Positions 53,982 to 55,257 of a stretch of DNA of 55,257 bases are shown piece after piece; the stretch's first letter is position 1; every line of letters starts with the position of its first letter. This stretch comes from Humibacter albus DSM 18994 (GTDB taxonomy: Bacteria; Actinomycetota; Actinomycetes; Actinomycetales; Microbacteriaceae). The position numbers were made by a program, and so were the translations under genes. The stretch covers positions 1 to 55,257 of the forward strand of contig NZ_ATXT01000003.1 of assembly GCF_000421825.1 (NCBI RefSeq), in the 5' to 3' direction. The notes beneath the pieces were generated by a model. It did not search any database. It saw only the letters and a list, made by a program, of their open reading frames with translations, and was not told the origin of the DNA.

Positions 53982-54722
53982 ATGTCCGCACGCCCCGCCG
54001 GAAACTACGGTATCGACGCCCCAGGAGTGCCCTGGGGGTGGGGCGGCTGCGCCGTCGTCTTCGCGATAGCGGCGATCGTCGTGAGCGTGCTGGGCTCCGC
54101 ACTGTGGCTGCCCATATATTTCACCGTGCTCGCGGTGATCGCTGCCATCGGCACGTTCTTCTACCTGCGCTCCACACTGGTGGGAAAGTTCGAAGTCTGG
54201 CGGGGCGTCATCGCGGCGCTCCGCCTGCGCGGTGACGAGGAGGCGCTCGACCTGGGGTGCGGCCACGCTTCCGTGTCGGTGCTGCTGGCCGAACAGCTGC
54301 CGACCGGGCACGTGACGGGGATCGACCTGTGGCGCAGCGTCGACCAGTCCCGCAACTCGGTTCAGGCGGCGCAGCGCAATGCGCGTGCCAACGACGTGGA
54401 TGCCCGCATCACTTTTGACACGGGCGACATGACCTCTCTTCCCTACGCCGACGCGTCGTTCGATCTTGTGACGGCGAGCCTCGCCATCCACAACATCCGC
54501 AGCGCCCAGGCGCGCCGTACCGCCGTACTCGAGGCCGTGCGGGTGCTCAGGCCCGGCGGACGCCTGGCGATCGTGGATATCGAGAAGGTGCGCGAATACG
54601 ACGCGACAGTGCGCGAGGCCGGGCTCACCGTGGCGGAGAATCGCGGGCTCGGCTGGCGCATGTGGTGGACCGGCCCGTGGTTCCCGACCCGGCTCCTCAT
54701 CGCGACGAAGCCCGAACAGTGA
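53982..54722 (+). CDS. Class I SAM-dependent methyltransferase with N-terminal membrane anchor
   Basis: A 246-residue protein. Two hydrophobic helices (about residues 20-38 and 43-62) precede a Rossmann methyltransferase domain: ALDLGCGHASVSVLLAEQLP is motif I (SAM binding), TGIDLWRS the acidic loop, FDTGDMTSLPYADASFDLV motifs II/III, and VLRPGGRLAIVDI motif IV. The anchor places it at the inner membrane face, suggesting a lipid, quinone or membrane-protein substrate. GAGGAG precedes the ATG. It lies 13 bp behind leuA and may be read through from it. Confidence 0.8.
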   Translation: MSARPAGNYGIDAPGVPWGWGGCAVVFAIAAIVVSVLGSALWLPIYFTVLAVIAAIGTFFYLRSTLVGKFEVWRGVIAALRLRGDEEALDLGCGHASVSVLLAEQLPTGHVTGIDLWRSVDQSRNSVQAAQRNARANDVDARITFDTGDMTSLPYADASFDLVTASLAIHNIRSAQARRTAVLEAVRVLRPGGRLAIVDIEKVREYDATVREAGLTVAENRGLGWRMWWTGPWFPTRLLIATKPEQ

Positions 54723-54883: not shown

Positions 54884-54959
54884 GCACCTCTAGCTCAATC
54901 GGCAGAGCAACTGACTCTTAATCAGTGGGTTCAGGGTTCAAGTCCCTGGGGGTGCACCA
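54884..54959 (+). tRNA. tRNA-Lys (anticodon CTT), CCA encoded
   Basis: A complete cloverleaf: acceptor GCACCTC/GGGGTGC, D arm GCTC/GAGC, anticodon arm ACTGA-CTCTTAA-TCAGT with anticodon CTT, and T arm CAGGG-TTCAAGT-CCCTG. Discriminator A is followed by an encoded CCA (54957-54959), unlike the other two tRNA genes in the window. The antisense strand of its 3' half encodes the C-terminus of a repressor gene. Confidence 0.95.
54918..54959. other. Candidate phage attachment core (attL) in the tRNA-Lys 3' half
   Basis: From the anticodon loop to CCA this tRNA segment also serves as the last 13 codons plus stop of the minus-strand repressor gene. tRNA 3' halves are the usual attB sites of tyrosine integrases. 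The other junction is beyond the window, so the core limits are not proven. Confidence 0.5.
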
Positions 54960-55202
54960 CACTTCCCCTTGCTCGATCCATCCGAGCGGCACGCCGGTCG
55001 CGAGCGCCCACATCTGAAGCGTGGCGCGATTCGGCACGCGGTAACCGTTCTCCGCGGCGCTGATCGTCCCTCGCGAGATACCCGCGGCGTCCGCGAGCTC
55101 GACCTGCTCCAGCCCAGCAGACTCGCGTGCCTTCCGCAGCCTATCGGCGACGCTCCACTCTGGAATTCGGCCGGCGTTGACATTCGGCATCGTAATGCTC
55201 AT
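54918..55202 (-). CDS. XRE-family phage-type repressor, C-terminus encoded by antisense tRNA-Lys
   Basis: A 94-residue protein with one Cro/C1-type helix-turn-helix (about residues 16-72: RLRKARESAGLEQVELADAA then GISRGTISAAENGYRVPNR, with LQMWALATGVPLGWIEQG). The final 13 residues, WCTPRDLNPEPTD, are exactly the antisense reading of tRNA-Lys from CCA to the anticodon loop, where TAA ends the frame. ATG at 55202 is 7 nt behind TAATGT, with TTGAAT 17 nt further up, a strong leaderless promoter; the frame is open to the window edge but needs no extension. It resembles repressors of temperate actinophages that are cut short by integration at a tRNA. Alternatively it is a host regulator. Confidence 0.78.
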   Translation of the reverse strand: MSITMPNVNAGRIPEWSVADRLRKARESAGLEQVELADAAGISRGTISAAENGYRVPNRATLQMWALATGVPLGWIEQGEVWCTPRDLNPEPTD

Positions 55203-55209
55203 GCGTCCC

Positions 55210-55238
55210 ACATTAGACGTGGTGGCCGGAATATTCAA
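55210..55238 (-). promoter_or_regulatory. Promoter of the XRE repressor
   Basis: TTGAAT (55233-55238) and TAATGT (55210-55215) on the minus strand with an ideal 17-nt spacer; the -10 ends 7 nt before the ATG at 55202. Confidence 0.6.
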
Positions 55239-55257
55239 TATCGCGATGTCGAACATA

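Follow-up and report, generated by a model that had tools for sequence, protein, structure and literature searches.

The DNA analysed here (the window: the whole of contig C3 of Humibacter albus DSM 18994, 55257 bp) ends 298 bp into a prophage whose repressor gene runs into the host tRNA-Lys(CTT) gene and takes its stop codon there. This arrangement most probably represents integration-dependent immunity of the type described for phage BPs and the Gordonia CW phages, a reading to which we assign a probability of about 0.85 from the sequence comparisons below. A temperate prophage of about 17 kb would have integrated at tRNA-Lys(CTT), its phage attachment site sitting in the 3' end of the phage repressor gene. 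The phage form of the repressor would have about 119 aa and would carry a 25-residue tail (...VVTPIDFAFELRSARSGDAA) that is a probable mark for proteolysis. Integration would sever this tail, leaving it at attR near the expected integrase gene, and the host tRNA would contribute the 13 final codons and a replacement TAA stop. The outcome would be a repressor of about 94 aa, presumably stable and active in maintaining lysogeny and immunity, in a prophage that may be able to excise.

The repressor gene and tRNA-Lys(CTT)

The features of the window and their coordinates are as follows.

53982-54722, plus strand: host gene flanking attL on its chromosomal side (open reading frame; homologues in two of the four other genomes of the genus), which we take to be methyltransferase-like
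54884-54959, plus strand: host tRNA-Lys(CTT) gene, attB and now attL (ARAGORN; second 3' copy at C1:253-295)
54918-54920, minus strand: TAA stop at the seam, with T from the core and AA from anticodon bases of the host tRNA
54918-55202, minus strand: XRE repressor gene in its prophage form (open reading frame and family models; start placed by eye from relatives)
54920-54959, no strand: att common core, with 40 of 40 bases shared by C1:256-295 and by the attR copy in the sister prophage of genome G001
54921-54959, minus strand: 13 C-terminal codons (WCTPRDLNPEPTD), antisense to the 3' half of the tRNA (open reading frame and tRNA coordinates)
54960-55257, no strand: left end of the prophage, up to the end of contig C3 (55257 bp)
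55212-55217, minus strand: possible but weak -10 element TCTAAT for a near-leaderless repressor transcript (reading of candidate starts)

The minus-strand open reading frame 55256-54918 ends in WCTPRDLNPEPTD and a stop. Its TGG (Trp) codon complements the CCA that ends the tRNA gene (54957-54959), so that 13 codons (54959-54921) and the TAA lie inside the tRNA. A first-pass annotation of the sequence had described just this, an XRE repressor whose last 13 codons and stop run antisense in tRNA-Lys(CTT) from CCA onward, and its coordinates are exact. Model searches identify the protein as an XRE/Cro-C1 repressor (HTH_3, E 1e-14; phrog_2328, "transcriptional repressor", E 2.3e-24). Translation likely starts at the ATG at 55202 (94 aa, or 112 aa from the ATG at 55256), a start judged by eye against several of the 14 relatives for which candidate starts were listed. 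The first-pass annotation had also given the gene a "strong leaderless promoter". This is unsupported, because a consensus scan for a promoter of the repressor gene returned no site; the -10-like TCTAAT at 55217-55212 is weakly compatible with a near-leaderless start.

The other end of the prophage and the read-through tail

Contig C1 of the same genome carries, at positions 253-295, a 43-base match (98%) to the 3' part of the tRNA, and bases 54920-54959 are identical within it (40/40). To the right of this copy lie chromosomal genes, among them presumably one for a LuxR-type regulator, as judged from the reading frames; to its left are 252 bases of other DNA. With a second tRNA 3' copy and chromosome beyond it, the proposal that the window ends in a prophage starting at about 54960 is supported. 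Since the tRNA 3' part is matched over 43 bases at C1 and the arrangement recurs at many tRNA genes of the family, the overlap of repressor and tRNA is no coincidence.

The att core lies within the repressor reading frame, which is open across it. Read on the minus strand in this frame, the C1 copy gives WCTPRDLNPEPTD-SGSDAVVTPIDFAFELRSARSGDAA-stop, adding 25 residues that end in GDAA. The TAA of the prophage form is replaced on the phage side, in the C1 copy, by TCA (Ser), and it is thus the seam that provides the repressor stop. The first-pass annotation had anticipated a longer C-terminus in the virion form; the frame does continue for 25 codons past the prophage stop and ends in AA. The TGA of the tail overlaps the ATG of the next open reading frame (ATGA), which is still open at the end of the contig, 60 or more codons on. 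This 25-residue tail would probably mark the repressor for proteolysis, the tagged form being the unstable one. Its end GDAA and the host ssrA tag ANSNSTVSAKAQVALAA have only AA in common, the L being absent. A second use of the tail as integrase arm-binding DNA was considered and rejected, as repeats shared across the core show no excess.

Pieces of a phage of this type are found on contigs C7 (5266 bp) and C8 (4762 bp), which are colinear with the G001 element over most genes at about 69-77% DNA identity. C7 carries the terminase, recognised by PHROGs, and the portal (80-81% and 76% aa identity to their G001 counterparts), although the TerL_ATPase model had no match in this genome. The four longest open reading frames of C8 have no family match, and this contig is placed solely by its resemblance to the G001 element. 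As estimated from the coordinates of the G001 comparison, about 7 kb of the prophage, including the integrase region, are unassembled. No overlap bridging C3 and C1 was found among the ends of readable contigs; apparent overlaps of C9, C10 and C12 are artefacts, since these contigs read N. Among the integrase hits of the genome none could be tied to the C3/C1 prophage; the hit on C5 was discarded as only a distant match (30%) to the G001 integrase. The first-pass annotation had named an attR copy, an integrase and phage genes as the things to look for beyond the contig end: the attR copy (C1) and phage genes (C7, C8) were found, and an integrase was not, in this assembly. Because no integrase is tied to it and about 7 kb are unassembled, the prophage could be defective.

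No relative of the repressor was found in the genome-contig or viral-contig collections, and none of the terminase in the genome-contig collection. The IMG/VR entry IMGVR_UViG_2523533583_000002, of 5266 bp like C7, encodes a terminase 100% identical over 639 aa.

Related prophages in the genus and the family

The sister prophage is found in G001, a single-contig genome of the genus, between tRNA-Lys and a second 3' copy that matches all 40 core bases of the window. The two G001 copies have 38 bases in common with each other and lie 17,283 bp apart. In order, the element carries an HTH repressor gene with the tail CTPRDLNPEPTD, an excisionase-like HTH gene (phrog_66) in divergent orientation, terminase and portal genes, a major head protein gene that also matches head-maturation protease, other genes, a tyrosine integrase on the minus strand, small open reading frames and attR. 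Terminase, head protein, integrase and repressor were recognised by model, and the portal by weak matches only. Read through the core, the repressor gains a tail of 26 residues, SSKASAVVTPIDFAFELRASRNGDAA, which also ends in an ATGA overlap, here onto a 26-codon open reading frame.

The repressor heads of DSM 18994 (G000) and G001 are only 31% identical over 64 aa, and the common tRNA-coded end is part of this alignment. Their tails (...VVTPIDFAFELR...GDAA) can be aligned with one in-frame indel and have identical ends; the 30 nt ACGCCG...CTGCGC are identical in the two strains. This pair suggests an exchange of heads and tails at the att seam, although ordinary phage mosaicism could also explain it.

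The site itself varies within the genus. No homolog of the DSM 18994 repressor was found in the four other genomes at E 1e-8. A search with the tRNA core found tRNA-Lys without a second exact copy of its 3' part in G002 and G004, and did not find the site in G003 (87% complete). With a different repressor and a 17.3-kb prophage in G001, the arrangement is not core synteny, the outcome that would have counted against the first-pass reading. Homologues of the gene next to attL have no tRNA within 1.5 kb in the genus. At the G001 attL (L119:1808-1817) the tRNA-Lys gene ends in GTGCACAA, and the CCA of the window is intact; the encoded CCA of G001 has thus been replaced by integration, and this tRNA would need CCA addition. 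A 314-aa protein of the same prophage (L119:2320-3264) contains a long run of short repeats rich in Ala, Asp, Trp and Arg (such as DAAWAAARDAAWDAA). Two more phrog_2328 repressor matches in the genus lie at tRNA-Arg (L157, G003:C34) and tRNA-Thr(TGT) (L160, G001:C1:1777446).

A repressor search of 398 genomes of the family (Microbacteriaceae) at E 1e-10 matched 17 genomes, DSM 18994 included. The 16 others gave 17 loci, 13 of them with an intact tRNA (Lys, Arg, Thr or Asn) at the repressor 3' end; the remaining four are a decayed tRNA-Lys-like sequence in G056, an intact long form in G251, a second copy in G037, and G279, with none. Thirty loci were listed among the many matches of the phrog_2328 model, 16 of which came from the repressor search already. 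A tRNA lies at the 3' end of the match in 23 of these 30 (DSM 18994 included), and in 10 of the 14 that were new. By mechanical longest-frame reading the stop falls inside the tRNA in 19/30; the frame used in att mapping adds L142 and L144, with L156 and L158 ambiguous.

Long stretches were compared for 12 of the 16 other genomes and for G001, with 3.5 kb for G279, and with G251, G275 and G292 outside the comparison. A tRNA lies at the repressor in 12 of these regions (11 and G001). In each of the 12 the tRNA recurs as a copy of 35-82 bases at a distance of 8.2-17.7 kb, and no more than 0.9 kb from this copy is an integrase gene in the same orientation as the repressor (the G001 integrase being the query). 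The repressor frame crosses the core in every one of the 12 and stops inside the tRNA in 11; that of G037 reads through, in another frame.

Three genomes of the family show variations. The repressor of G056 (C2; L063/L083) ends in what resembles a decayed tRNA-Lys(TTT) whose T-arm is damaged; no second copy or long repeat was found within 60 kb, nor an integrase match within the first 26 kb. A 3.9-kb contig of G251 (C66; L064) carries an apparently intact long-form repressor across a tRNA-Thr-like core, ending in DGLIAA. In G037 (C1:625001-645000; L077) two related repressors lie 17 kb apart, one at tRNA-Arg and the other at the second core copy. The two run through the tRNA in a different frame, and there is only one second core copy. 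The locus is possibly a tandem or remnant prophage; tandem prophages of such a kind have been published (PMC9934374).

Long-form tails end in AA in 5 of 13 cases (the 12 regions and DSM 18994), compared with 9 of 627 background open reading frames, and in AA, LA or VA in 7/13 compared with 20/627. In the other two frames of the 13 tails, AA ends occur in 2/13 and 0/13. The binomial P is about 7e-7 for 5/13, or 2e-5 with the G000/G001 pair counted once; these values are rough, since the background frames were filtered by codon-position GC and may include overlapping ones. Six of the 13 tails (G099, G091, G037, G240, G186 and G225, the last ending in SA) lack an AA, LA or VA end. The integrases also end in AA in 6 of 12 cases, against the same 9/627.

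Known systems and alternative explanations

In BPs, attP lies inside the repressor gene, the short form being stable and the long form degraded through an ssrA-like tag (PMC4557955). The DSM 18994 prophage resembles BPs (gp33-103 and gp33-136) in having attP within the repressor frame and a shorter repressor after integration. It differs in its site, tRNA-Lys, and in a tail of 25 rather than 33 residues past the seam, ending in GDAA; also unlike BPs, small open reading frames separate tail and integrase in the G001 prophage. About half of 27 Gordonia phages with an identified attP core have the attP-in-repressor design, and the CW phages have attB at tRNA-Lys, GMA5 with an extra open reading frame between int and rep (PMC5559632). 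GMA5 and GRU3 (both CW cluster), EricDab and SallySpecial have genomes of 15.9-17.7 kb. Their repressor genes contain a core like that of tRNA-Lys (31-33 of 40 bases), their repressor tails end in AA (4/4), and the integrase comes next downstream or one open reading frame away. GRU3 has two tandem copies of the att-like core and repressor tail, 77 bases apart, in the interval from its repressor to its integrase (L128:1566-1711).

The G001 integrase is 43-47% identical to those of these four phages, and 41-47% to small Gordonia phages among the matches listed, and the DSM 18994 repressor head is different. The DSM 18994 terminase is 26.1% identical to that of Schiebs, the sole small Gordonia phage in the best 20 of 77 matches. 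These values do not point to a close sequence relation with the CW phages. The CW-type layout (about 15-18 kb; terminase, portal, capsid and tail genes followed by int and rep in the opposite orientation) is seen in G001, the DSM 18994 prophage being in pieces.

Named phages gave 297 records matching the DSM 18994 repressor. Microbacterium phage PensacolaC28 (16.7 kb) has the terminase-portal-capsid order and HTH genes upstream of integrase genes; it differs in a terminase 34.8% identical to that of C7, an integrase annotated as two open reading frames and a repressor tail ending in GVE. Brevibacterium phages AGM1-16 have a tRNA-Lys-like core (37/40) inside an annotated immunity repressor, but genomes of about 36 kb and another frame through the core, the AGM1 tail ending in DAK. 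Two of the six isolated phages compared (AGM1 and PensacolaC28) thus lack an AA, LA or VA end. One paper, PMC5513430, covers integration-dependent immunity and mentions Microbacterium; among the matches listed from the open-licence literature we found no report of integration-dependent immunity in Microbacteriaceae.

Many phages integrate at tRNA 3' ends. With such ends being common integration sites, this could be an ordinary tRNA-gene prophage whose repressor happens to enter the att core, the change of tail having no regulatory role. The six of 13 tails without an AA, LA or VA end would fit this explanation, as would a DSM 18994 tail ending in GDAA and not in LAA. We nevertheless consider it improbable: a repressor frame that passes through the core in 12/12 regions and stops in the tRNA in 11/12, AA ends in 5/13 tails and 6/12 integrases against 9/627 in the background, and a tail frame that G000 and G001 have both kept, their indel being in frame and their ends the same, all argue against it. 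A chimeric C3 or C1, suggested by the break of both contigs less than 300 bp from the att copies, is hardly credible, given that the single contig of G001 has the same junction types and homologous phage DNA on the attR side.

There is somewhat more room for a dead remnant, a former system of integration-dependent immunity that has lost its integrase and other genes, although this too seems unlikely. What is left of the prophage is fragments (the C3 end, C7, C8 and the C1 start), none with a linked integrase. Against this, most genes of C7 and C8 stand in the same order as in a complete sister, and the gaps lie at contig ends, as expected of assembly breaks; three small contigs (C9, C10, C12) that read N may or may not belong to it. 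A functional switch of integration-dependent immunity, as the first-pass annotation had suggested, is the explanation we favor, and it draws support from the att pair, the read-through frame, the sister prophage and the phage genes of C7 and C8.

A broader interpretation is tentative, and we hold it to be doubtful at present: integration-dependent immunity may be the standard switch of the mostly 15-18-kb mini-phages of the family (at tRNA-Lys, Arg, Thr, Asn, Ala and Met), with a repressor in which two interchangeable cassettes meet at the att core: a head that sets immunity specificity and a tail that bears the tag and moves together with the integrase. If this were true, the similar tail behind two heads in G000 and G001 would reflect exchange at the att seam, by which immunity type could be switched and the integration-coupled tag kept. 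The G000/G001 pair, alike in tail and unlike in head, would allow asking whether immunity specificity and tag evolve as separate cassettes, and pairs of short and long repressors with the same head are at hand to ask whether AA-ended tails are degradation signals. One complete sister element and 11 further att-mapped relatives form the comparison set. The switch was established in mycobacteriophages and has been predicted for Gordonia phages, and would now extend to prophages of another actinobacterial family.
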